Positions 17,962 through 59,602 of a DNA stretch of 64,000 bases are shown piece after piece; positions within the stretch are counted from its first letter, which is position 1, and each line of letters opens with the position of its first letter. The stretch covers positions 25,678-89,677 of the forward strand of contig NZ_JANIPD030000002.1 of NCBI RefSeq assembly GCF_024609215.1, read 5' to 3'. A program made the translations under genes and the position numbers. Origin of the DNA: Curtanaerobium respiraculi (GTDB lineage: Bacteria; Actinomycetota; Coriobacteriia; Coriobacteriales; Eggerthellaceae). The notes below the pieces were generated by a model, which searched no databases, was not told the DNA's origin, and saw only the letters and a program-made list of their open reading frames with translations.

Positions 17962-18119
17962 CTACCATCGGTGGGTTATCCCTTCTGCGCTGCTACCCCC
18001 CGTGGAGTATCGTAGTCTGTGCATCATTCGAAGCCCCTCCGGCAGGCGCGGGCGGACGGACGGCATACTCTACGCTCATGTTGCTTTTTGCAGCGCAGGA
18101 GGAAGAGCGGAGGAGCGCC

Positions 18120-18797
18120 ATGCAAAGCAAGCGAGGGGAAGGCTCCCGCACGGGTGCGGGATATCCGATTTTTGTCGATTTGAACCAGCGCCGGGTCGTC
18201 GTCATAGGCGGCGGATCGGTCGCCGAACGCAAAATAGCCACGTTGCTCGAGTTCGGGGCGGACGTGCGCGTGGTGTCCCCCGAGGTCACCGATCCCATTG
18301 CCCGGCTCGCTGCGGAAGGCGGGATCGAGCTGCGAAAACGCGTGTACGAGCCCGGCGATCTGGAGGGCGCTTTCCTGGCCATATGCACGTGCGGCAAGCC
18401 CGAGGAGGATGCCCGCGTCCACGACGAGGCCCGTCGGCGGAATTGCCTGCTCAACGTTGCCGATGTTCCATCGGAGTGCGATTTCATCCTCCCGTCGTTC
18501 ATGAGCCGCGGCAGGTTGCAGATCGCGGTGTCCACCAACGGGTCGGCTTGCACGGAGGCGAAGAACATCCGGCGCCACCTCGAGGAGGAGTACGATGAGA
18601 GCTGGGAGGCGTACCTCGACCTGCTCTATGAGATGCGCCAATTGGTGAAGCAGCGCATCGAAGGCCAAGAGGAGCATCGGAAGCCCATCTTCGAAGCCGC
18701 GACCCGCGTCGGATTCCGGCAGCGGTTGGCCGCAGGCGAGGATATCACGGCCGAAGACGCCTATGCTGAAGCGGTCCGCGCAGCTCGGGAGGATTAG
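18120..18797 (+). CDS. Precorrin-2 dehydrogenase (siroheme synthase N-terminal type)
   Basis: This 225-residue protein oxidises precorrin-2 to sirohydrochlorin with NAD and, as in Met8p, may also insert iron to give siroheme. The N-terminal Rossmann motif VVVIGGGSVAERK and the later STNGSACTEAKNIRRHLEEE segment are typical of the CysG-N/Met8p/SirC family. The ATG at 18120 follows GGAGGAG; an ATG at 18078 would add 14 unlikely residues. No separate SirB chelatase is in the window. It opens the tetrapyrrole cluster, with hemA one base after its stop. Confidence 0.88.
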   Translation: MQSKRGEGSRTGAGYPIFVDLNQRRVVVIGGGSVAERKIATLLEFGADVRVVSPEVTDPIARLAAEGGIELRKRVYEPGDLEGAFLAICTCGKPEEDARVHDEARRRNCLLNVADVPSECDFILPSFMSRGRLQIAVSTNGSACTEAKNIRRHLEEEYDESWEAYLDLLYEMRQLVKQRIEGQEEHRKPIFEAATRVGFRQRLAAGEDITAEDAYAEAVRAARED

Positions 18798-18798
18798 C

Positions 18799-20325
18799 AT
18801 GCAAGTGTATATGGTCGGCCTATCCCATAAGACCGCCGAAGTGGACGTGCGCGAGGCCGTGTCCATCACGCATGTGAGGTGCGAGAGCGCCGACCGCGTG
18901 CTCGCCCAGCAGCCCGCGATCCGCGGCGCCGTCATCCTGTCCACATGCAACCGGACTGAAATCTACGTCGATACCGACGATTCCCGTGCCGCCCACGAGC
19001 AGATCTGCGATTTCATCGCATCGTTCAACTCCATCGACCGCAGCGTGTTCGAAGGCCATCTGTACAAGCGCAACGGGTTCGAGGCGGTGCACCATCTGTT
19101 CAGCGTGGTATCCTCGCTGGAATCCATGGTGCTAGGCGAGCAGCAGATCACCGGGCAGGTGCGCGAGGCCTTCAAGAAGAGCATGCAGGCCGGTACCTGC
19201 ACCATGGTCCTCGCGCGGCTGTTCCGCCAAGCGCTGTCCTGCGGCAAGCGCGTCCGAAACGAAACTGCGATCAGCGAGAACCACATCTCCCTGTCGACGG
19301 TCGCGATCGATGTCGCGCGCGATGAATTCGACATCTTCGACGATAAGACCGTCTTGGTCGTCGGATCGGGGGAGATGAGCGAGCTTGCGGCGCGTTACCT
19401 GCGCGAACTGGGCGTGCGATCCTTCATCGTCAGCAGCCGCACGTTCGCCCACGCCTGCACCCTCGCCCAGGAACTGGGCGGCGATGCGCAGCCGTACGAG
19501 AATCTTCCCGAGTTGCTGAGCCATGCGGATATCGTCATCTCGTCCACGGCGGCGCCCCGCACGATCATCGAACCCGCCATGCTGCAACGATGCAAGGAAC
19601 ATCTGCTCATCCTGGACATCGCGCTGCCCCGCGATGTCGATCCCGCCTGCGCCGGCGTTCCGGGCGTGACATTGTACGACCTCGACAACCTGGGTCGCAT
19701 CATCAGCGAAAACCAGCGGAAGCGCCGCAAAGCCGCCGATGCCGCCCGCGCTATCGTCGAGAACGAGACCCGGAACTTCCTTTTGTGGGTCGCCGAGCAT
19801 GCGGTGACGCCGACCATCAAACGGATGCGCGCGGATGCGGAAACCATGCGCGTGTCCGAGGTGGACCATCTGGTGCGCAAGCTCACGGTGGACCTGAGCG
19901 ACGACGATCGCGCCTCCCTTGATGCGGCAACGCGCGCCATCGTGAAGAAGATGCTGCACGAGCCGACGGTGCGCATGAAGCAGAGCGCCGCGCACAATCG
20001 CGATTTCGAATGCGTCGAGGCGGTGCGCTACCTGTATGGCTATTCGAATCCTGGCGAGATGGTGGAGCATGCCGCTTCCATCTCGGATGACATGGCCGCG
20101 ATCGGCGGCCCCCGCTCGCCGAAGGGCGGTATGCCGCCCCATCCGATTCCCCGCAATACCCATATCGCGGGACTGAACGGGAGCTTGAGCCGCAAGGACA
20201 TGATCGCCATGTGCCGCCATATATTGGATTCGCTTGACGCCGAGGGCGGCATGCCGACCGACCGGATTCCCCTGGCGCGCGTGCAGGCGTACGCGCAGCA
20301 GGTTGCGAAGGCGAAGGAGGAATAG
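18799..20325 (+). CDS. hemA: Glutamyl-tRNA reductase
   Basis: This 508-residue enzyme reduces glutamyl-tRNA to glutamate-1-semialdehyde, the first committed step of tetrapyrrole synthesis. The catalytic cysteine sits in STCNRTEIY, and MVLGEQQITGQV is diagnostic. A Rossmann domain (VLVVGSGEMSELAARYL) follows. The C-terminus is longer than the usual 420-450 residues, ending in a variable tail of about 70. The start at 18799 has GGGAGGA upstream. Confidence 0.96.
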   Translation: MQVYMVGLSHKTAEVDVREAVSITHVRCESADRVLAQQPAIRGAVILSTCNRTEIYVDTDDSRAAHEQICDFIASFNSIDRSVFEGHLYKRNGFEAVHHLFSVVSSLESMVLGEQQITGQVREAFKKSMQAGTCTMVLARLFRQALSCGKRVRNETAISENHISLSTVAIDVARDEFDIFDDKTVLVVGSGEMSELAARYLRELGVRSFIVSSRTFAHACTLAQELGGDAQPYENLPELLSHADIVISSTAAPRTIIEPAMLQRCKEHLLILDIALPRDVDPACAGVPGVTLYDLDNLGRIISENQRKRRKAADAARAIVENETRNFLLWVAEHAVTPTIKRMRADAETMRVSEVDHLVRKLTVDLSDDDRASLDAATRAIVKKMLHEPTVRMKQSAAHNRDFECVEAVRYLYGYSNPGEMVEHAASISDDMAAIGGPRSPKGGMPPHPIPRNTHIAGLNGSLSRKDMIAMCRHILDSLDAEGGMPTDRIPLARVQAYAQQVAKAKEE

Positions 20326-20326
20326 G

Positions 20327-21262
20327 TTGACGAAGAGGAAGATCGTCCTGGGGAGCCGCGGCAGCAAGCTGGCGCTCTGGCAGGCGAGCCACGTGCGCGA
20401 CCTGCTTGCGGAGCGAGCGCCCGAGTATGAGTATGACATCCGCGTCATCCATACCAAGGGCGACAAAATCCTGGATGTCGCCCTGTCGAAGATAGGGGAC
20501 AAGGGACTGTTCACCAAGGAGCTCGAACGCGAGCTCATGCGCGGCGGCGTCGATCTGTGCGTGCATTCGATGAAGGACATGCCCACGCAGCTGCCCGACG
20601 GCCTGGCGATCCTCGGCGTGCCGGAGCGCGCCGTCCCCTTCGATGCCCTGGTGGGACCTGCGGGCATCGCGCTTGAGGGCCTGCCAGCCGGAGCGCGCGT
20701 GGCGACGGGGTCGCTGCGCCGCATCGCCCAGCTGAAGCGCCTGCGCCCCGATATCCAAACGTGCGAGATGCGCGGCAACATCGACACGCGCATCGGCCGC
20801 GTGATGGCGGGCGAGTTCGACGCGGCCATCCTCGCCGCCGCCGGCCTGCACCGTTTGGGGCTGCATGAGAACATCGCGCAGGTCCTGCCCGCTGCCACCA
20901 TGATTCCCGCCGTTGGCCAGGGGGCCATCGCCGTCGAGGCCCGCGAGGGCGACGACGAGGTTCGTCGGCTATGCGCGGCGATCACGAATGATTCCACCCT
21001 GCGATGCGTGTCCGCGGAGCGCTACGTCCTGCGCGAGCTGGAGGGCGGATGCCAGGTTCCCATGGGTGCCCATGCGGGCATCGCGGGCGAAGGGGACCGT
21101 GCCGTCTTCGCCATGACCGCGTTCGTGAGCTCGCTCGACGGATCGCGCTTCCTGCAAGCCGCGGGCCAGGGGGCGTGCGACGGCTGGCTGGATGTCGCGA
21201 GTCGCATCACGGACGATTTGGTCGCGCAAGGCGCCGAGGAGATTCTGGAGGAACTGCGATGA
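20327..21262 (+). CDS. hemC: Porphobilinogen deaminase (hydroxymethylbilane synthase)
   Basis: This 311-residue enzyme joins four porphobilinogens into hydroxymethylbilane. The N-terminal GSRGSKLALWQA and the dipyrromethane cofactor cysteine in LEGGCQVPMG are both present. The start is a TTG at 20327 behind AAGGAGG, immediately after the hemA stop. The stop overlaps the next start as ATGA. Confidence 0.95.
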   Translation: MTKRKIVLGSRGSKLALWQASHVRDLLAERAPEYEYDIRVIHTKGDKILDVALSKIGDKGLFTKELERELMRGGVDLCVHSMKDMPTQLPDGLAILGVPERAVPFDALVGPAGIALEGLPAGARVATGSLRRIAQLKRLRPDIQTCEMRGNIDTRIGRVMAGEFDAAILAAAGLHRLGLHENIAQVLPAATMIPAVGQGAIAVEAREGDDEVRRLCAAITNDSTLRCVSAERYVLRELEGGCQVPMGAHAGIAGEGDRAVFAMTAFVSSLDGSRFLQAAGQGACDGWLDVASRITDDLVAQGAEEILEELR

Positions 21263-22827
21263 GCGATACGTGCGTGTACCTTGTCGGAGCCGGACCGGGC
21301 GACCCGGGCCTGCTGACCCTTCGCGCGAAGGAGCTGCTGCAGCGGGCGGACGCGATCGTCTACGATTACCTGGCAAGCGATGCCGTCATCAGGTTCGCGT
21401 CGCCCGCCGCGGAACGGCATTTCGTGGGGAAAAAGGGCTTCTCCCGGCATGTGACCCAACCGGAGATCAACGATCTTCTGGTCGAGCTCGCGCGGATGGA
21501 AAAGGGCTCCATCGTCCGGCTGAAGGGCGGAGATCCCTTCGTGTTCGGACGCGGTGGGGAAGAGGCGCTCGCCCTGCGCGCGGAGGGCATCCCCTTCGAG
21601 GTCGTCCCGGGTGTGACCGCGGGCGTTGCCGCGCCGGCGTATGCGGGCATCCCCGTAACCCATCGTCATGTGGCGAGCAGCGTCGCGCTGATCACGGGGC
21701 ACGAGACGCCCGAGAAGAACGAATCCGCCATCGATTGGGAGAGCCTCGCCAAAGGCGCGGATACCCTGTGTTTCTACATGGGCATCCGGGACCTCCCCCT
21801 CATCGTGCGCCGCCTGACCGAGGCGGGACGGGCGGGAAGCACGCCGGTCGCCCTGGTCCGCTGGGGCACCACGGTGCGGCAGGAGACGCTGGTCGCCACG
21901 CTGGACTCCGTGGTGGAATCGGCGGAGCGCGCCCGATTCAAGGCGCCGGCAATCATCGTGGTGGGCGAAGTCGTCGCGCTGCGCGACCGGCTGAACTGGT
22001 TCGAGAAGAAGCCGCTGTTCGGCAAAACTGTCGTGGTCACCCGCTCGCGCGAGCAGGCGAGCGCGCTGTCCGCCCGCCTGCGGGACGCGGGTGCCGAGGT
22101 GGTTGAGTTCCCCACGATCGAGATTGCGCCGCGGCCTCTCGATGCGCGGGCCAGGGAGGCCATCGCCCGCCTTGCAAGCGATGCCGCAGCGGTTCGGGAG
22201 GCCTACGATTGGGTGGTGTTCACCAGCGTCAACGGCGTGTCGTGCTTCTTCGACATGCTGAAGGAGGCAGAAAGCGACGCCCGCGTGTTCGGCGGCGTGA
22301 AAGTTGCCGCCATCGGTCCCGCCACGGCGGCGGCGCTCGCATCGCATGGCATCGCCGCCGACCTCGTCCCACCTCGTTTCGTTGCGGAAAGCGTCGTCGA
22401 GGCGCTTCGCGCGAGCGGTGTGGGCGGGGGGGCCAGCGTGCTCATTCCCCACGCGGCAGCCGCCCGCGACGCCCTGCCCCGGCTGTTGGAGGGGGCGCGC
22501 GTCCGGGTGGACGTGCTGCCCGTATACGACACGGTCATGCCCGCCGAGTCCGATCAGGCCTCCGATTTGGTTGATCGCCTGCGTGCCGGATCGGTCGATG
22601 CCGTCACGTTCACGAGTTCCTCGACCGCGCGCAATTTCGCCGCGCTGCTCGACCGGGCGGCGCCGGGCGAGCGTGCGAACCTCGTCGAGGGAGTCGTGGG
22701 CGCGAGCATCGGCCCCGTCACGAGTGAGACGATGCGCAGCCTCGGCCTGCCTGTTTCGGCAGAGGCGCCCGAATACACCATCCCCGCCCTCGCGCGAACC
22801 GTCGAAGAGGCGCTCGCCGACGAATAG
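21259..22827 (+). CDS. cobA-hemD: Fused uroporphyrinogen-III C-methyltransferase / uroporphyrinogen-III synthase
   Basis: This 522-residue protein joins two enzymes. Residues 1 to about 245 are the SAM-dependent methyltransferase (VYLVGAGPGDPGLLTLRA and GGDPFVFGRGGEE) that makes precorrin-2. Residues from about 250 to the end are uroporphyrinogen-III synthase, with the weak conservation typical of HemD (VVFTSVNGV and TFTSSSTARNF). Such fusions are common in clostridia and actinobacteria. It commits uroporphyrinogen to the siroheme branch. Confidence 0.94.
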   Translation: MSDTCVYLVGAGPGDPGLLTLRAKELLQRADAIVYDYLASDAVIRFASPAAERHFVGKKGFSRHVTQPEINDLLVELARMEKGSIVRLKGGDPFVFGRGGEEALALRAEGIPFEVVPGVTAGVAAPAYAGIPVTHRHVASSVALITGHETPEKNESAIDWESLAKGADTLCFYMGIRDLPLIVRRLTEAGRAGSTPVALVRWGTTVRQETLVATLDSVVESAERARFKAPAIIVVGEVVALRDRLNWFEKKPLFGKTVVVTRSREQASALSARLRDAGAEVVEFPTIEIAPRPLDARAREAIARLASDAAAVREAYDWVVFTSVNGVSCFFDMLKEAESDARVFGGVKVAAIGPATAAALASHGIAADLVPPRFVAESVVEALRASGVGGGASVLIPHAAAARDALPRLLEGARVRVDVLPVYDTVMPAESDQASDLVDRLRAGSVDAVTFTSSSTARNFAALLDRAAPGERANLVEGVVGASIGPVTSETMRSLGLPVSAEAPEYTIPALARTVEEALADE

Positions 22828-22897
22828 ATTGCGCATCGGGCGGATTCGCATCCGAGGGGTCTGCCCGCGTGCCCGATGACCGAGAAGGAGAAGCAAG

Positions 22898-24142
22898 TTG
22901 ATCGGTATTTCCAAACTCTATTGCGGTGCCGTGGAGCCGGCGGACGTGCTGCGCTACCGCCGCATGTCCAAGGAGCTGCCCAGCGGCCTGCTGCAGTTCA
23001 GCAAGGACAAGAAGCCCGTGGTGGTGTGGAACTGCACGCGCACCTGCAATCTGAAGTGCGAGCATTGCTACGCGCAATCCGATGCGCAGGCCTACGACCA
23101 GCTCTCGACCGACGAGGCGAAGGCGATGATCGATGACTTGGCAGCATTCGGCGCCCCTGTGCTGCTGTTCAGCGGCGGTGAGCCCACCGTGTGTCCCGAC
23201 CTGCTCGAGCTCATGCATCATGCGAAGAAGCAGGGGATGCGCGTGGTGATCTCCACCAATGGCACGCTCATCAGCAAGGACATGGCCGAGAAGTTCGCCG
23301 AGGTGGGTCTTTCGTACGTGGGGGTCTCCTTCGACGGCGATCCGGCCACGCACGATAGGTTCCGCGGCGTCGACGGCGCCTTCGACATGGCGCTGCGCGG
23401 GCTGAAGAACAGCCAGGAAGCCGGCATCAAGGTGGGGCTGCGCTTCACCATCAACAAGCACAACTGGCGCGAGATCAACGACATCTTCGACCTGATGCAG
23501 CGCGAGAACATCAACCGCGCCTGCTTCTACCATCTGGTGTATTCCGGTCGAGGCACCGAGATGATGGACGAGGATCTGGACCACGGGGAGACGCGCCAGG
23601 CGGTCCGCCTGATCATGGACCGCACGAAGCAGTGGTTCGACGCCGGCGGGACGCCCGAGATCCTGACGGTGGACAACCACGCCGACGCCCCGTTCGTGTA
23701 CATGGAGCTTCTGAAGGAGGATCCCGAGCGTGCGGCCAAGGTCATGCAGTTGCTGCAATGGAACCAGGGGAACAGCAGCGGCAACGGAATCGGGTGCGTC
23801 AGCTGGGACGGCGAGGTGTATGCCGACCAGTTTTGGCGGCATTTCAGCTTCGGCAACGTGAAGGAGCGCCCCTTCAGCGAGATTTGGAGCGACGTGAGCC
23901 GTGCCACCGAGGGAAGCGAGTTGATGTTCCGCCTGAAGGACAAGCGCCCCTGGGTGAAAGGCCGCTGCGCCGGGTGCCGCTGGCTCGACATCTGCGGCGG
24001 CAATTTCCGCGTGCGGGCGGAGGCGGCCACGGGCGATCTGTGGGCTCCCGATCCCGCATGCTACCTGACCGATGAGGAGATCGCGAAGCACGCCGACGAC
24101 CCCGAGAAGCGCGTCGTCGAGGCGCCCGCATACGAAAACTAG
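22898..24142 (+). CDS. ahbC: Radical SAM protein AhbC (didecarboxysiroheme deacetylase, NirJ-like)
   Basis: This 414-residue protein has the radical SAM cluster motif CNLKCEHC, GGEP, and a C-terminal cysteine set (CVSWDG, CAGCRWLDIC and DPACYL) for an auxiliary iron-sulfur cluster. The N-terminus MIGISKLYCG and LLQFSKDKKPVVVWN are characteristic of the AhbC/NirJ1 group. AhbC removes the acetate side chains of 12,18-didecarboxysiroheme to give Fe-coproporphyrin III. Neighbours favour AhbC over the heme d1 enzyme NirJ. The start is a TTG at 22898 with AAGGAG upstream. Confidence 0.88.
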   Translation: MIGISKLYCGAVEPADVLRYRRMSKELPSGLLQFSKDKKPVVVWNCTRTCNLKCEHCYAQSDAQAYDQLSTDEAKAMIDDLAAFGAPVLLFSGGEPTVCPDLLELMHHAKKQGMRVVISTNGTLISKDMAEKFAEVGLSYVGVSFDGDPATHDRFRGVDGAFDMALRGLKNSQEAGIKVGLRFTINKHNWREINDIFDLMQRENINRACFYHLVYSGRGTEMMDEDLDHGETRQAVRLIMDRTKQWFDAGGTPEILTVDNHADAPFVYMELLKEDPERAAKVMQLLQWNQGNSSGNGIGCVSWDGEVYADQFWRHFSFGNVKERPFSEIWSDVSRATEGSELMFRLKDKRPWVKGRCAGCRWLDICGGNFRVRAEAATGDLWAPDPACYLTDEEIAKHADDPEKRVVEAPAYEN

Positions 24143-24190
24143 GTTCGTCCGCGCCGGCGGCTGGACTGCCGGCGCGTTGTTGGAAGGAAG

Positions 24191-25186
24191 ATGGGTTCGA
24201 TGGAGTACGGCAAATTCCCCGCCTACCGCCCGCGCCGCATGCGCGATGGCGAGCTGGCGCGAAACATGATCCGCGAGACGGTGCTTTCGGCGGATGATTT
24301 CATCTATCCGCTGTTCGTGAAGCCGGGCGAGGGCAGGCGCGACGAGATCGCCTCCATGCCGGGCGTGTTCCAGGTGTCGTTGGACATGCTGATGGATGAG
24401 ATCCGCGAGCTGCTCGAGCTGGGCATCCATTACGTGCTGCTCTTCGGGATCCCGGCGAGCAAGGACGAGCTCGGGTCATCGGCGTGGGACGAGCACGGCA
24501 TCGTGCAGGAGGCGTGCCGCATCATCCGCGCTGAGGCTCCCGAGATGTACATCATCTGCGACGTGTGCATGTGCGAATACACGAGCCACGGCCATTGCGG
24601 CAAGCTCGACGCAGACGGCTACGTGAACAACGACGACACGCTTCAGCTGCTGGCCAACGAGGCCGTGAGCATGGCGAAAGCAGGGACGCACATGGTGGCC
24701 CCGAGCGACATGATGGACGGTCGCATCGGCTTTATGCGGCGGGCCCTCGACGAAGCCGGATTCGAGCGCGTGCCCATCATGAGCTACTCGACCAAATACG
24801 CCAGCGGATTCTACGGGCCGTTCCGCGACGCCGCCGACAGCACGCCGTCGTTCGGCGACCGGCGCGCCTACCAGATGGACCCCGCGAACTCCCAGGAAGG
24901 CGTGCGCGAGGCGCTCTACGACATCGCCGAGGGCGCCGATATGGTGATGGTGAAGCCCGCGCTGCCATACCTGGACGTGCTCCAGCGCGTGAAGGCGGAA
25001 ACCGGCTTCCCCACGGCTGCCTACAATGTGAGCGGCGAATACTCGATGGTCAAGGCGGCCGCGCGTAACGGATGGATCGACGAGAGGCGCGTGGTGCTCG
25101 AGTTGCTCTGCGGCATCAAGCGGGCAGGTGCCGACATGATCATCACCTACCATGCCAAAGATGCCGCCCGCTGGCTGGCCGAATAA
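24191..25186 (+). CDS. hemB: Delta-aminolevulinic acid dehydratase (porphobilinogen synthase)
   Basis: This 331-residue enzyme condenses two aminolevulinate molecules to porphobilinogen. The Schiff-base lysines are Lys202 in SYSTKYAS and Lys255 in MVKPALPYLD. A cysteine cluster at residues 123-136 (CDVCMCEYTSHGHCG) marks the zinc-dependent form. The start at 24191 has GGAAGG upstream, though a second ATG three codons in is possible. It lies between the two radical SAM genes. Confidence 0.96.
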   Translation: MGSMEYGKFPAYRPRRMRDGELARNMIRETVLSADDFIYPLFVKPGEGRRDEIASMPGVFQVSLDMLMDEIRELLELGIHYVLLFGIPASKDELGSSAWDEHGIVQEACRIIRAEAPEMYIICDVCMCEYTSHGHCGKLDADGYVNNDDTLQLLANEAVSMAKAGTHMVAPSDMMDGRIGFMRRALDEAGFERVPIMSYSTKYASGFYGPFRDAADSTPSFGDRRAYQMDPANSQEGVREALYDIAEGADMVMVKPALPYLDVLQRVKAETGFPTAAYNVSGEYSMVKAAARNGWIDERRVVLELLCGIKRAGADMIITYHAKDAARWLAE

Positions 25187-25198
25187 GAGGAGCCGTCG

Positions 25199-26545
25199 GT
25201 GAGTGGGGAACGCAACATGCGCCTTGGGCAGATGATGCTCGATGCCAAGGATGCCGCGCAGGCCGCGGGGAAGATCGACGACGGGTCCCGGCCGCACGGC
25301 GGGCACCCCTCGTGGGTTCCCAAATCGGGAAAGCGGCCGGAATGGACGAAGGGAAGGGGTGGCGAACGCAGGGCGTCCGACGCTGCGCCGCCGCGTGGGC
25401 ATCCCGGCAGCCATGCTGGCGCCCGCCCCGGGGGCGGTGCGGCGGCGCTGGCGTATCAGGAGCGCACGGGCATCAAGGCCCCCCGCATCGTCGCGTGGGA
25501 GATCACGCGCAGCTGCAACCTGTCCTGCGCGCATTGCCGCGCGGCGGCGGAATTCGGGGCGTATCCGGGCGAGCTCTCGCTCGATGAGTGCAAAGCGCTC
25601 ATCGACGATATCGCCAGCATCACCAACCCCATCCTCATCCTCACCGGCGGCGAGCCGTTCATGCGGCCCGATATCTGGCAGATAATCGACTACGCACGGG
25701 ATCGCAGCTGCATGCCCGTCATCGGCACGAACGCCACCACCATCACCGAAGATATCGCGCGGAACATGCAGGAGCATGGGATCACCCGTATGAGCGTGTC
25801 GCTGGACTTCCCCGACGCCGAGCGCCATGATGCGTTCCGTGGCCAGAAAAGCGCCTACGACGACGCCGTGCGGGGGATCAAGCTGGCGCAGCAGCACGGC
25901 GTGGGGGTGCAGATCAACACGACCGTCACCAAGCAGAACGCCAAGGTGCTCGACGAGATGCACGGCCTCGCCAAGGATTTGGGGGCGGTTGCGTTCCATC
26001 CGTTCCTTTTGGTGCCCACGGGACGCGGTGAGAACCTGCGCGATATCGAGCTGACGCCCGAGGAATACGAAGAGGTGCTCACCTGGGCATACTACAAATC
26101 GAAGACGAGCCCGCTGCATTTCAAGCCCACGGACGCCCCCCAGTATTACCGCATCGCGCATCAGAAGGCGCGCGAGGAGGGCAGCCGAGTTACCGCCGAG
26201 GAATACGGCACCGAGGCCATGACGCGCGGCTGCCTCGGCGGGATCACGTTCGTGTTCATCAGCCATACCGGCGATGTGCAGCCCTGCGGGTACTTCGATA
26301 TGCAGCTGGGAAACGTGAAGGAGACGCCCTTCAGCGAGATCTGGACGAACTCGCCGGTGTTCAACGACCTGCGCGACTTCGGCAAGCTGAAGGGGAAGTG
26401 CGGCGCCTGCGAGTACAAGGCCGTCTGCGGCGGGTGCCGTGCGCGCGCCCTTTCCGCTACCGGCGACTACATGGAAGAGGAGCCGTACTGCGCCTACGTG
26501 CCGCGCTCGATGAGGGCGCGCGGGGAAGCGGATGGAGCCGTCTAG
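25199..26545 (+). CDS. ahbD: Radical SAM heme synthase AhbD, with a long N-terminal extension
   Basis: This 448-residue protein is a radical SAM enzyme (CNLSCAHC near residue 107, GGEP) with a C-terminal SPASM-like cysteine set (CGACEYKAVCGGC and YCAY). AhbD oxidatively decarboxylates two propionates of Fe-coproporphyrin III to make heme b. The first 85 or so residues are rich in Gly, Pro, Arg and Lys and look disordered. An annotator could place the start later, but the GTG at 25199 has GAGG upstream and the frame is open throughout. It lies 12 nt after hemB. Confidence 0.85.
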   Translation: MSGERNMRLGQMMLDAKDAAQAAGKIDDGSRPHGGHPSWVPKSGKRPEWTKGRGGERRASDAAPPRGHPGSHAGARPGGGAAALAYQERTGIKAPRIVAWEITRSCNLSCAHCRAAAEFGAYPGELSLDECKALIDDIASITNPILILTGGEPFMRPDIWQIIDYARDRSCMPVIGTNATTITEDIARNMQEHGITRMSVSLDFPDAERHDAFRGQKSAYDDAVRGIKLAQQHGVGVQINTTVTKQNAKVLDEMHGLAKDLGAVAFHPFLLVPTGRGENLRDIELTPEEYEEVLTWAYYKSKTSPLHFKPTDAPQYYRIAHQKAREEGSRVTAEEYGTEAMTRGCLGGITFVFISHTGDVQPCGYFDMQLGNVKETPFSEIWTNSPVFNDLRDFGKLKGKCGACEYKAVCGGCRARALSATGDYMEEEPYCAYVPRSMRARGEADGAV

Positions 26546-26637
26546 AAGCTTTTCTCCACGGGCGACGCCCCGATCAAGGAATATCAAAAGCCCATGGAAC
26601 CGCATGGGGCCTGCACCTTTCGTCCTAAGGAGCGAGA

Positions 26638-27720
26638 ATGGTCGTCGATGATGCCAAACAGGAAGTGCTCGATGCCATCCAATCCCGATTCCCCCTGGTC
26701 CACGATCCATACGGCCAGCTCGCCGCAGAACTCGGGCTCGACCGCGACGAGGTGAAGCGGGCGGTCGTCGATCTGTATGCCGATGCGAGCATACGGAGGA
26801 CCGGGGGCTCGTTCGATTCCCGGCGGCTGGGCTATACGAGCACGCTGTGCGCGCTCGCGGTTCCCGGCGGCCCCGAACGCGTGCAGGCGGCCGCCGACGT
26901 GTGCAACCGGTACACGGGCATCACGCACAACTACGGGCGCGAGAACCGCTACAACCTGTGGTTCACGCTGATCACGCCAAGCCCGGAGGTCCGTGCGCGG
27001 ATACTTGCGGAGATCAAGCGGGATTCGGGGTGCGAGGATCTGCTCGACATGCCGGCTCTGCGGATCTTCAAGATCAACGGGGACTTCGGTAGGCAGCAGC
27101 GCGCGCTATCCGGGAAGGCGGATTCGATCGATTCGACACTGCGGCGCGAGGACAAGGAGGTCGAAGCGGTTCCGTTCGACTCCGGCAATCCCTTCGACGT
27201 CGCCTTGGTGCGGTGGGCGCAGGACGATATGGCGCGTTCGAGCGAGGGGGAGGTGCTCGATTTCCCCTTCGAGCGGGGAGCCCGCCAGATATCCGCGGAA
27301 ACGCGCGAGGATGCGACCGAGGAGCAGGTGCTGCTGCGGCTGCGGCAGCTGCGCGCCGCCCGCGCCCTCCGCAGGTTCGGCGCCATGGTCCGTCACCAGG
27401 TTATCGGATTCGGATTCAACTGCATGACCGCTTGGGACATCCCCGACGAGCACGTCGAGCGTGCCGGCATGCTGCTCAAGGAGAAGGTATTCGTGAGCCA
27501 TTGCTATGCCCGCCCGCGCCAGGGATTGTGGAGCGCGAACATCTATGCCATGATTCATGCGAAGACCGTCGAGCAGGAATCGCGGCAAATCGCCGAGCTT
27601 GAGGAGGCCCTGAACGAAGCGGGCGTGCCCTTCAACGAGCGGTTCGTGCTCAACACGACGCACGAGTACAAGAAGTGTTCCATGAGATATTTCGTAGGGG
27701 AGCGTACCTATGGCAACTAG
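26638..27720 (+). CDS. ahbAB: Fused siroheme decarboxylase, AhbA-AhbB
   Basis: This 360-residue protein holds two Lrp/AsnC-like units in one chain. The first, about residues 1-150 (FPLVHDPYGQLAAELGL, then THNYGRENRYNLWFTLI), matches AhbA. The second, about 200-360 (RALRRFGAMVRHQVIGFGFN, then VSHCYARP, NIYAMIHAK and KKCSMRYF), matches AhbB. Together they decarboxylate siroheme to 12,18-didecarboxysiroheme. The two subunits are separate genes in Desulfovibrio; a comparable fusion, NirDL, is known in heme d1 operons. The start has AAGGAGCGAG upstream, and the end overlaps hemL by 11 bp. Confidence 0.87.
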   Translation: MVVDDAKQEVLDAIQSRFPLVHDPYGQLAAELGLDRDEVKRAVVDLYADASIRRTGGSFDSRRLGYTSTLCALAVPGGPERVQAAADVCNRYTGITHNYGRENRYNLWFTLITPSPEVRARILAEIKRDSGCEDLLDMPALRIFKINGDFGRQQRALSGKADSIDSTLRREDKEVEAVPFDSGNPFDVALVRWAQDDMARSSEGEVLDFPFERGARQISAETREDATEEQVLLRLRQLRAARALRRFGAMVRHQVIGFGFNCMTAWDIPDEHVERAGMLLKEKVFVSHCYARPRQGLWSANIYAMIHAKTVEQESRQIAELEEALNEAGVPFNERFVLNTTHEYKKCSMRYFVGERTYGN

Positions 27721-28993
27721 CAGGTCGGAAGCTGATTTCGAAGCGGCGAAGCAGGTGATTCCCGGCGGGGTCAACAGCCCCGTGCGGGCGTTCGCGAACG
27801 TGGGACGGACGCCGGTGTTCTACGACCGCGCGCAGGGGAGCCGCGTGTGGGATGTCGATGGCAACGAGTACGTCGATTTCATCTGCAGCTGGGGACCGAT
27901 GATCCTGGGGCATCGGCCCCGGGCGGTGATCGATGCGGTCGAGGCGCAGCTGGCGCGCGGGATGAGCTTCGGTGCCCCGTGCGAGGCGGAAATCGCGCTT
28001 GCGGAGGAGATCGTGAAGCTCGTGCCCGCCGCCGAGAAGGTGCGCATGACCTCCAGCGGGACCGAGGCGACCATGAGCGCCATCCGCTTGGCGCGCGGAT
28101 ACACGCACCGCGACAAGTTCATCAAGTTCGAGGGGAACTACCACGGCCATTCCGATGCGCTGCTGGTGTCGGCGGGCAGCGGGGTCGCCACGTTCTCGAT
28201 TCCCGGAACGCCGGGCGTCACGGCGGGCGCCGCCGCGGACACGCTGGTCGCGCGCTACAACGACCTCGCGTCGGCGCGGGCGGCGCTCGAGGCGAATCCC
28301 CGGGATATCGCTTGCATCATCGTCGAGCCCATCGCAGGGAACATGGGCGTCGTGCCGCCTGCGGAGGGGTTCCTGCAGGGCTTGCGCGACCTGTGCGACG
28401 AATTCGGCGCGCTGCTCATATTCGATGAGGTGATCAGCGGGTTCCGCGCTTCCCTGGGCGGGGCGCAGCAGCTGTACGGCGTAATGCCGGATCTATGCAC
28501 GTTCGGCAAGATCATCGGCGGGGGGTTCCCGGTGGGATGCTTCGCGGGCCGTGCCGACATCATGGATGAGCTTGCCCCGACGGGGCCTGTGTACCAGGCG
28601 GGAACGCTTTCCGGAAACCCGGTAGCGATGGAGGCGGGCCTGGCCCAGCTTCGCGCGCTGGAGGAGCCGGGCGTGTACGACCGGCTCGAGATGCTGGGCG
28701 CGCGTTTGGAAGCGGGCTTGGTTGCGGCGATCGAGCAGTCCGGCGCGTCCGCTACCGTCAACCGTGCAGGCAGCGTGGCGACGCTGTTCTTCACCGACCG
28801 CACCGTGCGCAATTGGGACGATGCGGCAACATGCGATACTGACGCGTTCTCCCGCTACTTCGCGGGCATGCTCGAACGTGGGCTCCTCATCGCGCCCAGC
28901 CAGTTCGAAGCGCTGTTCGTAAGCGCCGCACACACGGAAGACGAGATCGACTCTTTCTGCGCTGCGGCGACAGAAAGCCTTTCGTCCTTGTAG
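27710..28993 (+). CDS. hemL: Glutamate-1-semialdehyde 2,1-aminomutase
   Basis: This 427-residue PLP enzyme turns glutamate-1-semialdehyde into 5-aminolevulinate. The N-terminal PGGVNSPVRAF and the PLP lysine in TFGKIIGGGFPVG are family hallmarks. The start at 27710 lies inside the end of the ahbA-ahbB gene, so the two are probably translationally coupled. It closes the tetrapyrrole cluster. Confidence 0.96.
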   Translation: MATSRSEADFEAAKQVIPGGVNSPVRAFANVGRTPVFYDRAQGSRVWDVDGNEYVDFICSWGPMILGHRPRAVIDAVEAQLARGMSFGAPCEAEIALAEEIVKLVPAAEKVRMTSSGTEATMSAIRLARGYTHRDKFIKFEGNYHGHSDALLVSAGSGVATFSIPGTPGVTAGAAADTLVARYNDLASARAALEANPRDIACIIVEPIAGNMGVVPPAEGFLQGLRDLCDEFGALLIFDEVISGFRASLGGAQQLYGVMPDLCTFGKIIGGGFPVGCFAGRADIMDELAPTGPVYQAGTLSGNPVAMEAGLAQLRALEEPGVYDRLEMLGARLEAGLVAAIEQSGASATVNRAGSVATLFFTDRTVRNWDDAATCDTDAFSRYFAGMLERGLLIAPSQFEALFVSAAHTEDEIDSFCAAATESLSSL

Positions 28994-53581: not shown

Positions 53582-54094
53582 ATGGGCCATTTGGCACATC
53601 GAGCGATGAGGAAGGACGAGGCAGATTCGATTGCCCGCGAATGGTGCGTTGAATTGTATGCAACGCCCGATTCGAAGGTATTCGAGGGGGATGTTTCCGA
53701 CACGAGGTTCAGCAACCCCGTCGCTTACCATATCGCCCAGACGTCCCAGGACGTCGTCGGGTATCTTTTTTCAAACGAGCGCGATCCGGAGGTGCCGGAA
53801 TCCGTCGATGATCTGTGCCGCCTCATCGCGCTTCAGGAGGCGAGGCCTTCCGAGGCTTTCGCCTCCTTCTTCAAGCTGCGCTCCATCGTGTTCTCACGCG
53901 CGGGCAAAAGCGGCATGGATGCGAAGACGCTTTCCGTCGTCAACGATCGCATCGACGCTTGCCTGCTGCGCGCGATGGACTGCTACACGCGTTTCCGCGA
54001 GCAGATCATGCAGCTTCGAATCGACGAGCTGAAGAGAAGTCGTGGGGCCTTCGAGGGCCGGTACAACGCGGCGCGCGTCCAAGTGGGAGCGTAG
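53582..54094 (+). CDS. RsbRD N-terminal domain protein heading the dsrMKJOP operon
   Basis: This 170-residue, mostly helical protein (LCRLIALQEARPSEAFASFF, then MDCYTRFREQIMQLRIDELK) resembles the RsbRD_N domain (PF14361). A gene of this type precedes dsrM in Desulfovibrio and its relatives, and the domain can be a heme-free or heme-binding globin-like sensor. The ATG at 53582 has AAGGAGGGC upstream. dsrM begins one base after its stop. Confidence 0.72.
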   Translation: MGHLAHRAMRKDEADSIAREWCVELYATPDSKVFEGDVSDTRFSNPVAYHIAQTSQDVVGYLFSNERDPEVPESVDDLCRLIALQEARPSEAFASFFKLRSIVFSRAGKSGMDAKTLSVVNDRIDACLLRAMDCYTRFREQIMQLRIDELKRSRGAFEGRYNAARVQVGA

Positions 54095-54095
54095 T

Positions 54096-55106
54096 ATGAA
54101 AATCATAGTTCCATTGTGTCTGGTTGTGCTCTTGGCGCTCATCGCCTGGGTCGGCACGTCCATATTGAATCTGACATTTCTGTTCGGCGTGGTCATCCCC
54201 TATGCGGCGTTCGCCGTGTTCGTGGTGGGCTTCGTCGTGCGCATCGTGCGTTGGGGAAAGTCCGCGGTCCCGTTCCGCATCCCCACCACGGGTGGGCAGC
54301 AGAAGAGCCTGCCTTGGATCAAGTATGCCAAGACGGATAACCCATCCACATTCGCCGGTGTCATCGGGCGCATGTTGCTCGAGGTGCTCTTCTTCCGCTC
54401 GCTGTTCCGCGGCACCAAGACCGAGAAGAAGGGCGACAAGCTCTACATCAGCTCCGCGAAATGGCTGTGGTTCTTCGCCCTGCTGTTCCATTGGTCCATG
54501 CTTCTCGTGGTCCTGCGCCACTTCCGCCTGTTCCTCGATCCCGTGCCCGCATGGGTGACGGCGATCGAGGGGCTCGACGGCATGTTCCAGATCGGCGTGC
54601 CGGTGCTGTATCTGACCGACGCGCTTCTGGTCAGCGCCCTCACGTTCCTGTTCCTGCGTCGCGTGGTCATCCCGCGGCTGCGTTACATCTCGCTCTCGGT
54701 CGACTACTTCCCGCTGTTCTTGTTGCTGGGTATCGCGATCACGGGCATCTGCATGCGCTACGTCTACCGCATCGACATCACCACGGTCAAGTCTCTCACG
54801 ATGGCGCTGGTCAGCTTCCAGCCCGCCATCATCGGCGAGATCCAGCCCATCTTCTACATGCACCTGTTCCTGGTCAGCACGCTTCTGGCGTACTTCCCGG
54901 CCAGCAAGCTCATGCACGCGGGCGGCATCTTCCTGAGCCCCACGCGCAACCTTGCCAACAACAGCAGGGCGGTCCGTCATGTCAATCCGTGGAACTACCC
55001 GGTCAAGGTGCACACCTATGCCGAATACGAGGAGGAGTTCGGGGAGAAAATGAAGAACGTCGGTTTGCCTTTGGATTCTGATGCGGGGGTGACCGAGAAT
55101 GTCTAA
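54096..55106 (+). CDS. dsrM: DsrMKJOP complex subunit DsrM, membrane cytochrome b
   Basis: This 336-residue protein has about six membrane segments and is related to the NarI family of diheme cytochromes b. The LLFHWSMLLVVLRHFR region carries heme-ligand histidines. DsrM takes electrons from the menaquinone pool and passes them to DsrK. The ATG at 54096 follows the previous stop directly, and the end overlaps dsrK by 8 bp. Confidence 0.93.
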   Translation: MKIIVPLCLVVLLALIAWVGTSILNLTFLFGVVIPYAAFAVFVVGFVVRIVRWGKSAVPFRIPTTGGQQKSLPWIKYAKTDNPSTFAGVIGRMLLEVLFFRSLFRGTKTEKKGDKLYISSAKWLWFFALLFHWSMLLVVLRHFRLFLDPVPAWVTAIEGLDGMFQIGVPVLYLTDALLVSALTFLFLRRVVIPRLRYISLSVDYFPLFLLLGIAITGICMRYVYRIDITTVKSLTMALVSFQPAIIGEIQPIFYMHLFLVSTLLAYFPASKLMHAGGIFLSPTRNLANNSRAVRHVNPWNYPVKVHTYAEYEEEFGEKMKNVGLPLDSDAGVTENV

Positions 55107-56763
55107 GACGCCTGATCAGAAAGAAATGTTCAACTTCGACTATTCCATGCCCGAGAAGGGCTGGATGCACACGCCCACCGAGTTCAAAGAGGGCATGTAC
55201 TGCTACGGCACCAAGCCGGACAAGCTTGAGACGATCGGCTTCCCGCATCCGCATAAGTGGAGCTCCAGCGACGAGGATTGGAACCTTCCGGAGAATTGGA
55301 AGGAGATCATCCTCAACGGCATGGAAGACCTCATGAAGAAGTACCGCTCCTTCAAGCTGTTCATGGATGTGTGCGTGCGCTGCGGCGCCTGCGCCGACAA
55401 GTGCCACTTCTACATGTCAACGGGCGACCCGAAGAACATGCCGGTCATCCGCGCCGAGCTCTTGCGCAGTGTATACAAGCGCTACTTCACCACGGCCGGC
55501 AAGCTGTTCGGCGAAGCCGTGGGCGCGCGCGACCTGACGGAGGACGTGCTGAAGGAGTGGTGGTACTACTTCTTCCAGTGCACCGAATGCCGCCGCTGCT
55601 CGCTGTTCTGCCCCTACGGTATCGACCAGGCGGAAATCACCATCATGGGCCGCGAGCTCCTGAACCTGATCGGCCTCAACACCGACTGGATCGCCGGCCC
55701 TGTGGCGAACTGCTACATGAAGGGTAACCACGTCGGCCTCGAACCCCAGGCCATCATCGGTAACGTCGAGTTCATGATGGAAGACCTGGAGGACGTCACC
55801 GGGCACCATTACGAGCCCTCCTTCAACCGCAAGGGCGCGGAGATCCTGCTCGTCGTTCCCTCCGGCGACCTGTTCGCCGAACCCGGCACATTCACCTTCA
55901 TGGGGTACATCACGTTGCTCGAGCACCTGGGCATCGACTACACGCTGAGCACCTACGCATCCGAGGGCGGGAACTTCGGCTTCTTCACGACCAACGAGAT
56001 GGCGAAGCGCCTGAACGCGAAGATCTACGCCGAAGCCGAGCGCTTGGGCGTCAAATGGATCCTCGGCGGCGAGTGCGGCCACATGTGGCGCGTCATGAAC
56101 CAGTACATGGACACATGGAACGGCCCCGCCGATTTCCTGGAGCAGCCCGTCTCGCCTATCACGGGCACAGTGTTCCACAATGCGGCCTCCACCAAGATGG
56201 TGCACATCTGCGAGTTCACCGCAGACCTGATCCACCACGACAAGCTGAAGTTCGACAAGAGCCGCAACGACCACCTGCGCGTGACGTTCCACGACTCCTG
56301 CAACCCGGCTCGTGGCATGGGCATGTTCGAGGAGCCGCGCTACATCATCAAGAACGTGTGCAACAACTTCTTCGAGATGCCCGACGAGACCATCCGCGAG
56401 CGCACGCTCTGCTGCGGCAGCGGCGCGGGCTTGAACGCCGGCGAGAACATGGAGCTGCGCTTGCGCGGCGGCATGCCCCGTGCGGAGGCGGTCCGTTCCG
56501 TGCGCGACAAGTACGGAGTCAACACCCTTGCCAATATCTGCGCTATCGACCGCGTCGCCTTCCCGCCGCTGATGGACTACTGGGTGCCCGGCACCCGCGT
56601 CACCGGCGTCCACGAGATGGTGGCGAACGCCCTCATCTTGGACGAGAACGACGATCGCCAGATGGATATGCGGCTTGAGGAGCTGCCGAGTGCCGTGAAG
56701 AAGCGCGAGGCGGCCGAAGCGGCGGCCAAGACGGCTGAAGCTGAGAAGGAGGAAAACAAATGA
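55099..56763 (+). CDS. dsrK: DsrMKJOP complex subunit DsrK, HdrD-like iron-sulfur protein
   Basis: This 554-residue cytoplasmic subunit has two 4Fe-4S motifs (CVRCGACADKC near residue 91, CTECRRCSLFC near 162) and CCG-domain cysteines (TFHDSCNPARG, then LCCGSGAGLNAG). These bind the special cubane cluster used by heterodisulfide reductases. DsrK is the site that reduces the DsrC trisulfide. It ends in an Ala/Glu-rich tail. The start overlaps dsrM and the end overlaps dsrJ by four bases. Confidence 0.96.
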   Translation: MSKTPDQKEMFNFDYSMPEKGWMHTPTEFKEGMYCYGTKPDKLETIGFPHPHKWSSSDEDWNLPENWKEIILNGMEDLMKKYRSFKLFMDVCVRCGACADKCHFYMSTGDPKNMPVIRAELLRSVYKRYFTTAGKLFGEAVGARDLTEDVLKEWWYYFFQCTECRRCSLFCPYGIDQAEITIMGRELLNLIGLNTDWIAGPVANCYMKGNHVGLEPQAIIGNVEFMMEDLEDVTGHHYEPSFNRKGAEILLVVPSGDLFAEPGTFTFMGYITLLEHLGIDYTLSTYASEGGNFGFFTTNEMAKRLNAKIYAEAERLGVKWILGGECGHMWRVMNQYMDTWNGPADFLEQPVSPITGTVFHNAASTKMVHICEFTADLIHHDKLKFDKSRNDHLRVTFHDSCNPARGMGMFEEPRYIIKNVCNNFFEMPDETIRERTLCCGSGAGLNAGENMELRLRGGMPRAEAVRSVRDKYGVNTLANICAIDRVAFPPLMDYWVPGTRVTGVHEMVANALILDENDDRQMDMRLEELPSAVKKREAAEAAAKTAEAEKEENK

Positions 56764-57152
56764 GCGCCAAAGCGAAAATCGCGCTGTTCTCCATCGTCTT
56801 CTGCGTGCTGATCGCCCTTCCGTTCGCTGCGAACATCGGCTCCGCGAGCGAGCAGCCCGAGCCCAGCTTGGACACGCCTGCCATCAACGCCATGAAGGAC
56901 AAGAAGTGCGTCGACGACACTGAGTACATGCGCACCTCGCATATGAAGATGCTGATCGAATGGCGTGACGAGGTCGTGCGCAGCGGCAACCGCTACTACA
57001 CCAACGAAGACGGCCAGGTGTACGAGATGAGCATCGACAAGACGTGCCTCCAATGCCACTCGAACCCCAGTGAGTTCTGCGACAGCTGCCACACCTACGC
57101 GAACGTGAATATCAGCTGCTGGGATTGTCACGACTCATTCGAGGAGATGTAG
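56760..57152 (+). CDS. dsrJ: DsrMKJOP complex subunit DsrJ, triheme cytochrome c
   Basis: This 130-residue protein has an N-terminal signal anchor (IALFSIVFCVLIALPFAANI) and three CxxCH heme sites (CLQCH, CDSCH and CWDCH). DsrJ faces outward and is part of the complex in sulfate and sulfite reducers and sulfur oxidisers. Size and heme count match the family. dsrO starts immediately after its stop. Confidence 0.95.
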   Translation: MSAKAKIALFSIVFCVLIALPFAANIGSASEQPEPSLDTPAINAMKDKKCVDDTEYMRTSHMKMLIEWRDEVVRSGNRYYTNEDGQVYEMSIDKTCLQCHSNPSEFCDSCHTYANVNISCWDCHDSFEEM

Positions 57153-57971
57153 ATGATCATGGCGACTGAGACGAAAAAAGGTTCACCTATGAAAAGGCGT
57201 GACTTCATCAAATTAGGCGCGGCAAGCTGTGCCGCGGCGGCTGGCCTGCTGTCCTTGAACGGCTGTCAGGTGGCGGAGATCTCCCACGGCGAGATCGTCG
57301 CGAGCATGGACGGTAAGACCAACAAGCAGTACGGCATGGTCGTCAACGTGAGCGAACTCAACAAGCTCGGCGTGATGGACGATATCATCCACGCGTGCCA
57401 TTCCGCGCATAACGTTCCCGACACGGGGAGCAAGCGGACCGAGGTCAAGTGGATTTGGGAGACTTCCTACGAGAAGGCTTTCGAGGAGATCAGCAGCAAA
57501 TACCTCTCCGAAGACGTGGAGAAGTACGAGTACCCGGTGCTCTGCAACCACTGCGAATCGCCGGCGTGCGTGCGCGTGTGCCCCACGCGCGCCACGTTCA
57601 AGCGCCCGGACGGCATCGTCATGATGGACTTCCACCGCTGCATCGGCTGCCGCTTCTGCATGGAGGCCTGCCCCTACGGCGCCCGCAGCCTGAACTTCAG
57701 CGACCCGCGCGAATACCTTGACGGCATCAACGACCAGTTCCCCACGCGCAGCAAGGGCGTGGTGGAGAAGTGCCTGTTCTGTTACGAGCGCATCGACAAG
57801 GGGCTGCAGCCCCTGTGCGTTGAGGCGTCGAAGGGCTCCATCCTGTTCGGCGACCTTACCGACGCGACGTCCGACGTGCGTCGAGCGCTTGCCAAGGCAT
57901 TCTCGATCCGCCGCCGCGTCGAGCTCGGCACCGGTCCGTGCGTCTACTATATTTTCGAAGAAGGTGAATAA
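57153..57971 (+). CDS. dsrO: DsrMKJOP complex subunit DsrO, Tat-exported ferredoxin
   Basis: This 272-residue protein has a Tat signal (KRRDFIKLG, residues 14-22) and cysteine motifs for several 4Fe-4S clusters (CNHCESPACVRVCP, CIGCRFCMEACPYG and CLFC). It sits on the outer face with DsrP and DsrJ. The ATG at 57153 directly follows the dsrJ stop; a second start at 57189 (MKRRDF) would also keep the signal. Confidence 0.95.
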   Translation: MIMATETKKGSPMKRRDFIKLGAASCAAAAGLLSLNGCQVAEISHGEIVASMDGKTNKQYGMVVNVSELNKLGVMDDIIHACHSAHNVPDTGSKRTEVKWIWETSYEKAFEEISSKYLSEDVEKYEYPVLCNHCESPACVRVCPTRATFKRPDGIVMMDFHRCIGCRFCMEACPYGARSLNFSDPREYLDGINDQFPTRSKGVVEKCLFCYERIDKGLQPLCVEASKGSILFGDLTDATSDVRRALAKAFSIRRRVELGTGPCVYYIFEEGE

Positions 57972-57973
57972 GC

Positions 57974-59264: not shown

Positions 59265-59579
59265 ATGGCAGAACTGCAAGTTGGCGATCGTGTGATCGCC
59301 CTTGACGAGGATGGCTTCCTGGAAGACGCCACTCAGTGGGACGAGGAAGTCGCCGAGGCTTTGGCCAAGACCGAAGAGGTCGAGCTGACCGATGCGCATT
59401 GGGCAGTCATCAACTACCTGCGCAAGTACTATGCCGACTTCGGCGTGGCCCCCATGGTTCGCAAGATGCTGCGCGACACCAAGCTGTCCAATGCCGAGAT
59501 GTATGAACTGTTCCCCAGCGGCCCGGGTAAAGGAGCCTGCAAAATCGCCGGCCTCATGAAGCCGACCGGCTGCGTGTAA
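59265..59579 (+). CDS. dsrC: DsrC, sulfur-carrier protein of dissimilatory sulfite reduction
   Basis: This 104-residue protein ends GKGACKIAGLMKPTGCV. Both functional cysteines are present: Cys103, second from the end, and Cys92, eleven residues earlier. This separates true DsrC from TusE, which has only one. DsrC receives sulfur from DsrAB as a trisulfide that DsrMKJOP reduces to sulfide. It has its own leader 100 nt after dsrP. Confidence 0.95.
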   Translation: MAELQVGDRVIALDEDGFLEDATQWDEEVAEALAKTEEVELTDAHWAVINYLRKYYADFGVAPMVRKMLRDTKLSNAEMYELFPSGPGKGACKIAGLMKPTGCV

Positions 59580-59602
59580 GCCTTTTCCGATTCAGGTTCG
59601 TG

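Follow-up and report, generated by a model that had tools for sequence, protein, structure and literature searches.

Gene content of the cluster

The 64,000-nucleotide stretch of Curtanaerobium respiraculi contig NZ_JANIPD030000002.1 analysed here (positions 25,678 to 89,677; hereafter the window) carries at 18120..28993 nine open reading frames (ORFs), all on the forward strand, encoding in order a CysG-N/Met8p-type dehydrogenase, HemA, HemC, CobA-HemD, AhbC, HemB, AhbD, AhbA-AhbB and HemL. The starts of the first four genes (18120, 18799, 20327 and 21259) were picked by eye for a ribosome-binding site, and with these choices the intergenic gaps are 1, 1, -4, 70, 48, 12, 92 and -11 bases; the nine genes are presumably co-transcribed as one operon. 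Their limits and profile scores (bits, against the cut-off of each profile) are:

18120..18797, +, precorrin-2 dehydrogenase of the CysG-B/Met8p type, possibly also sirohydrochlorin ferrochelatase; ORF opens at 18078; TIGR01470, 146.8 against 62.3
18799..20325, +, hemA, glutamyl-tRNA reductase with a C-terminal extension of ~90 residues; ORF opens at 18763; TIGR01035, 412.1 against 209.55
20327..21262, +, hemC, hydroxymethylbilane synthase, TTG start; ORF opens at 20234; TIGR00212, 317.4 against 164
21259..22827, +, cobA-hemD fusion, uroporphyrinogen-III methyltransferase and synthase; ORF opens at 21004; TIGR01469, 307 against 185; PF02602, 209 bits
22898..24142, +, ahbC, 12,18-didecarboxysiroheme deacetylase, radical SAM/SPASM, TTG start; TIGR04546, 670.5 against 650; placed also by tree
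24191..25186, +, hemB, porphobilinogen synthase; NF006762, 502.8 against 297
25199..26545, +, ahbD, heme b synthase (coproheme decarboxylase), radical SAM/SPASM, with an N-terminal extension of ~95 residues and KPTD at the first AuxI Cys; TIGR04545, 482.6 (cut-off 500)
26638..27720, +, ahbA-ahbB fusion, siroheme decarboxylase; NF040708, 171.1 against 140; NF040707, 162.9 against 125; HNYGR and HCYAR
27710..28993, +, hemL, glutamate-1-semialdehyde aminomutase; TIGR00713, 606.7 against 527.3

Each enzyme is matched by a profile, bearing out a preliminary description of this DNA that had named nine consecutive same-strand genes in the same order, and the scores of AhbC, AhbD, AhbA, AhbB and HemL exclude chance resemblance. 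Neither hemE, hemN, hemG nor hemH lies among the nine, as that description had also noted, and hemQ is likewise missing from them. These gene names are presumably to be found in automated annotation already.

A predicted siroheme route to heme

The cluster is very probably an operon making heme b anaerobically from glutamyl-tRNA via siroheme, that is, by the Ahb route. Its earlier interpretation as a complete siroheme-to-heme set is supported by the profile matches, by the motifs of AhbAB and AhbD, and by the absence of hemE and hemQ from the genome (2.50 Mb in 44 contigs, 99.5% complete, 1.4% contamination). The DNA itself shows which genes are present and in what order; the reactions in C. 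respiraculi and the source of the ferrochelatase activity are predictions. HemA, HemL, HemB, HemC and the HemD half would lead to uroporphyrinogen III, which the CobA half would methylate to precorrin-2, and the Met8p-type protein would oxidize this to sirohydrochlorin and perhaps also insert iron to give siroheme. The fused AhbA-AhbB would then strip two acetate carboxyls from siroheme, AhbC would remove the other two acetate chains to yield coproheme, and AhbD would decarboxylate two propionates of coproheme to form heme b. Predicted recipients of the heme are cytochrome bd, DsrM and DsrJ, with siroheme going also to DsrAB; the genome does encode the heme users CydAB, DsrM and DsrJ as well as the heme chaperone HemW. 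The reading is further favored by the lack of cytochrome cd1, by the recurrence of this gene set and its order in relatives, and by co-occurrence of AhbC and AhbB in a scan of 246 genomes of the class (53 of them, by our own row count, from the family of the window), in which a strong AhbB match is present in 31 of the 34 AhbC-positive genomes.

Several points weigh against this reading. AhbD falls 17 bits short of its NCBIfam cut-off and is missing one AuxI cysteine. The Met8p-type protein has Cys at the position of CysG P133, and the iron-insertion step lacks a firm gene, the candidates being the Met8p-type protein, HemH and CbiK. Elsewhere, the genome holds an orphan ferrochelatase (G000:C1:163203-164198; L046 10105-11232) and, upstream of cydAB, a HemN-like protein that goes under the name 'coproporphyrinogen III oxidase family'. 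Finally, three AhbC-positive genomes of the class (G139, G055 and G037) have no strong AhbB match, and one (G117) has a strong AhbB match with no AhbC above cut-off.

AhbD and its altered putative AuxI ligand

TIGR04545 is the best-scoring family for AhbD, the next being TIGR04053 at 349.5 bits, 133 bits less. Seven relatives whose operon includes AhbD were scored and reach 479.6-495.7, so the lineage as a whole sits just under the cut-off. The protein keeps CX3CX2C and a C-terminal CX2CX5CX20C (spacing read from the sequence), which fits the motifs CX3CX2C and CX2CX5CX20-38C described for AhbD (PMC10452713; this and the other sources cited by such numbers were available in part). The same source proposes C223, C256, C274 and C324 as the AuxI ligands of Methanosarcina barkeri AhbD. 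At the first of these positions, 32 residues before the second, the AhbD of the window has Asp (KPTDAPQ); the other seven SPASM cysteines stand at the right spacings, so that in place of the full eight-cysteine SPASM pattern of methanogen and sulfate-reducer AhbD (CX20-33CX17CX36-37CX2CX5CX2CX17-35C) there are seven cysteines and an aspartate.

This replacement is found in 21 of 21 AhbD sequences of the class (18 in the tree set and 3 from hemE-bearing relatives) and also at one locus outside it (L074). Cys occupies the position in five other AhbD of the same phylum (L072, L073, L075, L077 and L078) and in all 11 sequences of NirJ2, by which we mean TIGR04055; the AhbD of a further locus (L079) has lost several SPASM cysteines. 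The names NirJ1 and NirJ2 are applied in opposite senses in different papers (one is PMC10991733). An Asp ligand for AuxII of PqqE is mentioned in the AhbD paper (PMC10452713), and the AuxI cluster of the AhbD in the window may likewise be Asp-ligated.

AhbC is distinct from NirJ

A radical SAM pair with an AsnC-like fusion could in principle serve heme d1 synthesis, as NirJ and NirD-L, and not heme b. AhbC does score 523.6 bits on NirJ1 and 386.9 on NirJ, but both values are below the respective cut-offs whereas its own equivalog cut-off is exceeded (670.5 against 650). In a FastTree analysis of 42 AhbC-like and 36 AhbD-like sequences, AhbC of the window falls inside an actinobacterial AhbC clade (support 0.992). 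A separate clade (1.0) is made up of four NirJ, from Thioclava, Eleftheria, Ruegeria and Sedimenticola; three of these adjoin a cd1 or nitrite-reductase gene, the fourth being that from Sedimenticola. One further AhbC-like protein, from the same phylum (L079), groups beside NirJ (0.805), and AhbD-type sequences split from NirJ2-type sequences (0.94 and 0.988). The preliminary description had named grouping with NirJ as one outcome that would overturn the assignments; AhbC stands apart from the four NirJ and AhbD apart from the NirJ2 clade, with NCBIfam equivalog models standing in for biochemically tested AhbC and AhbD, none of which is in the tree. Cytochrome cd1 (NirS, PF02239) has no match in the genome, which therefore offers no heme d1 outlet, and the early hem genes sit in the same operon. 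A heme d1 role is thus extremely improbable, and we reject the NirJ identity on profile scores, tree and absence of cd1.

Siroheme supply and iron insertion

The fused AhbAB has the HXYXR motif described for siroheme decarboxylase (PMC4145669) in both halves, HNYGR and HCYAR, and matches solved NirD-like and AhbA/AhbB-type PDB chains (4ch7, and 4czd chains A and B). Upstream in the proposed pathway, the CobA methyltransferase and the dehydrogenase domain both exceed their profile cut-offs. In the product of the first gene, both Asp and Pro of the D-x-P loop are retained (NVADVPS, aligned with CysG D104-P106), and it does not have the SSFS of SirC; that loop is reported from bifunctional enzymes and SSFS from the dehydrogenase-only SirC (PMC7018833). 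In the same work, CysG P133 variants retained only part of either activity, and among the 13 other family sequences visible at this position Cys occurs in 3 and Pro in 10. CbiX has no match in the genome, in which CbiK was not searched. The candidates for iron insertion stay several because CbiX is absent and the P133 position is Cys even though the D-x-P loop is kept. HemH is a candidate sirohydrochlorin ferrochelatase; in the set of 79 family genomes it is about equally frequent with and without AhbC (18 of 19 and 52 of 60, from cross-reading two listings).

Other heme routes in the genome

Could heme instead be made or finished via the protoporphyrin or coproporphyrin branch, whose last steps would fall to HemH and the HemN-like protein, while the ahb genes do something else? 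The ferrochelatase is real enough, being 34% identical to Escherichia coli HemH over 334 positions, and its gene, a neighbor of DUF3793 and FtsX-type ABC transporter genes, departs from the expectation in the preliminary description that hemH would be missing, although it lies outside the window. HemH is also found in 70 of the 79 family genomes, AhbC-positive or not. The HemN-like radical SAM protein (L088 5852-7231; NF006385, 499 against 355) is encoded directly before the cytochrome bd genes cydAB (L088 7314-9676). Against these stand the missing partners. Neither PF01208 nor TIGR01464 finds hemE in the genome, and hemE is above cut-off in none of the 53 genomes that the class scan covers in this family; a profile search for hemQ likewise returned no match in the genome. 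HemN (TIGR00538) has two genome matches, both below cut-off, one of which is the heme chaperone HemW (255.6 against 205.4) and the other the HemN-like protein. The latter has the motif CERLCPYCSF, in which CX3CX2C is followed by SF, and lacks the extra cysteine that we take to be required by oxygen-independent coproporphyrinogen oxidase.

A coproporphyrin-dependent pathway (hemE and hemQ) is therefore not found in the genome, and the protoporphyrin-dependent one is incomplete, with hemE absent, hemN below cut-off and hemH present; hemF, hemG, hemY and hemJ were not searched for, nor was CgoN. A complete coproporphyrin route elsewhere in the genome, the other outcome against which the Ahb assignment had been staked, was accordingly not seen in the searches made, and we regard synthesis by either of these branches as very unlikely. 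Within the favored siroheme route, HemH, called orphan because hemE is missing, may salvage porphyrins or take iron out of heme. The HemN-like protein before cydAB may assist the oxidase by inserting or modifying its heme.

Dissimilatory sulfite reductase context

Two further groups of genes in the window bear on the use of heme and siroheme:

54042..59164, +, dsrM, dsrK, dsrJ, dsrO and dsrP, including heme users; NF038037, NF045796, NF045797 and NF045798 all above cut-off, dsrJ by position and three CXXCH, with no Pfam match
59265..61168, +, dsrC and a CobB/CbiA-type amidase gene, dsrN-like by position; PF04358, 130 bits, with the CX10C tail of DsrC; NF002204, 453 against 254

Contig 24 of the genome (L086) holds dsrA and a second match that is dsrB-like, and C. 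respiraculi, an actinobacterium that probably lives in the gut, is predicted to be a dissimilatory sulfite reducer. The preliminary description had set the cluster against the sulfate reducers in which the Ahb route is established: the route is indeed present here, and the surprise is smaller because the host itself carries dissimilatory sulfite reductase genes. These genes might suggest that the cluster mainly supplies siroheme to the reductase while heme is scavenged, since dsrMKJOP, dsrC and the dsrN-like gene share the window and dsrA is on contig 24. However, AhbA, AhbB, AhbC and AhbD are all unneeded for siroheme, and dsrA is above cut-off in 9 of the 246 class genomes, all in the family of the window, only two of which (the genome of the window and G220) also have AhbC above cut-off. 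This makes siroheme supply as the main function very unlikely. It also indicates that the two systems are not generally tied to each other, and we reject a general coupling of the Ahb route to dissimilatory sulfite reduction.

A single in-frame TAG occurs within dsrA in G074, G090 and G154 (L050, L051 and L052) and in G156, four genomes in all; it could be recoding, a real stop or an error. Just downstream of the heme operon, at 29464-32103 of the window, lies a UvrA-like ABC protein of 879 aa that scores 659.6, below the UvrA cut-off of 729.8.

Distribution and rearrangement among relatives

AhbC is above cut-off in 34 of the 246 class genomes, 12 of which are among the 53 of the family; in the sole other species of the genus in that scan (G190) it is not above cut-off. 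hemE exceeds its cut-off in 61 of the 246, all in other families, including 8 of the 34 AhbC-positive genomes, to which may be added G103 with hemE in two pieces. A scan of the phylum finds AhbC passing in 13 of 396 genomes, 7 of them outside the class (358 genomes there, own count). A contig scan with the AhbAB protein returned two relatives only, from a Spirochaetaceae and a Sedimenticola metagenome-assembled genome (MAG).

The order HemA, HemC, CobA-HemD, AhbC, HemB, AhbD, AhbAB, HemL is repeated in another family of the class (L067 and L068), from HemC onward in a third (L070), and at one locus outside the class (L074) at which AhbA and AhbB are separate. Variants exist: HemB precedes AhbC in G260, and 4-5 kb separate AhbC from HemB in L073 and L075. 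Because the gene order recurs across families and beyond the class, the operon is probably old and not a recent transfer.

Within the family, AhbD, AhbA and AhbB form one uninterrupted ORF of 708-999 codons in G220, G274, G246, G039, G223 and G282, that is, in 6 of the 12 family loci whose cluster includes AhbD; the window is counted among the 12 but is itself unfused. The fused AhbD sequences form one clade of the tree together with the unfused one of G256. The fused ORFs are:

L035 8562-11195
L036 9041-11665
L037 3838-6450
L080 7681-10677
L081 7422-9854
L082 1749-3872

A different change is seen at six family loci (G030, G070, G138, G208, G009 and G175), which have the same operon without AhbD and a radical SAM protein upstream. 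The latter is above the NirJ2 cut-off in the five loci scored, and that of the sixth, G138, groups with them in the tree. Across the 79 family genomes NirJ2 is above cut-off in 23 and an AhbD-type match is present in 15 (one a fragment and one in two pieces), with zero overlap, and each of the 19 genomes in which an AhbC-type match is seen carries either NirJ2 or AhbD (G277 and G281 on the strength of a single listing). The ahb operon of the Spirochaetaceae MAG (L015) also has NirJ2, between AhbC and AhbAB. This pattern suggests, short of proof, that NirJ2 is a heme synthase. Eighteen of the NirJ2 genomes in the family show no AhbC-type match, and at one locus (L044 160-4184) NirJ2 is followed by a set of periplasmic-binding-protein, FecCD permease and ATPase genes. 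Such NirJ2 genomes without AhbC may be capable of tetrapyrrole uptake and salvage.

A possible switch of route around AhbD

Outside the family, 15 class genomes have a weak AhbB-like match and no AhbC above cut-off, and by cross-reading all 15 have hemE above cut-off. The three looked at (G016, G047 and G010; operons L089, L090 and L091, hemE regions L092, L093 and L094) share an operon of HemA, HemC, HemD, HemB, AhbD, AhbAB-like protein and HemL, whose AhbD is 70-72% identical to that of the window. In all three the operon lacks AhbC and has only the HemD part of CobA-HemD, and the AhbAB-like protein is without HXYXR; two of these proteins were scored, and they fall below the cut-offs of AhbA and AhbB alike. 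At another place in the genomes of G047 and G016, the hemE stretch encodes a ferrochelatase (TIGR00109; 136.3 in G047 and 137.4 in G016 against 124.6) and, after it, an enzyme of the protoporphyrinogen-oxidase type (TIGR00562; 223.5 and 240.8, respectively, against 97.85), and in G010 a ferrochelatase-like ORF adjoins hemE. The simplest reading, offered as a lead, is that these relatives use a coproporphyrin route ending in AhbD; AhbD has been named as an alternative to HemQ (PMC8587615).

We tentatively suggest, as a scheme that may well fail in one part or another, that an old actinobacterial heme operon has been rebuilt while its final enzyme stayed constant, this being an AhbD whose auxiliary cluster is either open or ligated by Asp. 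In the siroheme mode of the window, CobA, AhbC and a catalytic AhbAB would feed AhbD. In the coproporphyrin mode of the hemE-bearing relatives, CobA and AhbC would be gone, AhbAB would have lost HXYXR and a hemE-hemH-hemY set at another locus would supply AhbD with coproheme. AhbD and AhbAB would have become a single polypeptide in one subclade, and NirJ2 would have replaced AhbD in another. Were this true, NirJ2 would act as a heme synthase, and those relatives that possess NirJ2 and HemH and lack AhbC would complete heme from scavenged tetrapyrroles.

The cluster and its relatives would place the siroheme route and an apparent AhbD-sharing hybrid in one bacterial class, and the relatives with the cluster rebuilt for other heme routes would be a useful natural experiment. 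The Cys-to-Asp change, the AhbD-AhbAB fusion and the exchange of AhbD for NirJ2 are natural variants for probing the roles of AuxI and NirJ2. Models of heme cross-feeding, or inhibitors, that assume a single heme route for such bacteria would be wrong.

Comparison with known systems

Our literature search, which left most subscription papers out of reach, recognized no paper describing the Ahb route in Coriobacteriia. According to the part available of a 2024 review, the siroheme route occurs in archaea and some sulfate reducers, and the coproporphyrin route almost exclusively in gram-positive bacteria (PMC10991733).

The cluster resembles the Ahb pathway of Desulfovibrio and M. barkeri in having AhbA, AhbB, AhbC, AhbD and the siroheme precursor steps, with HXYXR and CX3CX2C. 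It differs in uniting all nine genes from glutamyl-tRNA onward in one cluster, in the fusion of AhbA to AhbB, and in the Asp at the first AuxI Cys of AhbD. AhbA-AhbB fusions are reported for most archaea possessing these proteins (PMC4145669). Dehalobacter, for which the Ahb route has also been inferred, has a comparable AhbAB fusion and an AhbD-like protein and AhbC with consecutive gene numbers; it is not an actinobacterium, and early hem genes go unmentioned as neighbors in the part of the source available (PMC4751268). A plasmid cassette of Paenibacillus polymyxa (L062, a NirJ1-NirJ2-AsnC fusion arrangement) similarly has an AhbAB-like fusion, bearing HNYRR and HCYKR, downstream of a radical SAM pair, but its AhbC-like member is only 50% identical, its second member is of the NirJ2 type and the stretch contains no early hem genes.

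A coproporphyrin pathway with AhbD in place of HemQ is approached by the relatives G016, G047 and G010, which have AhbD in the operon together with hemE and ferrochelatase, and in G016 and G047 a protoporphyrinogen-oxidase-type gene. The genome of the window, in contrast, has no hemE and keeps CobA, AhbC and, to judge from its motifs, a catalytic-looking AhbAB. The locus is thus a well-supported Ahb operon: a known pathway, with features that vary within the lineage, in a genome with dissimilatory sulfite reductase genes.

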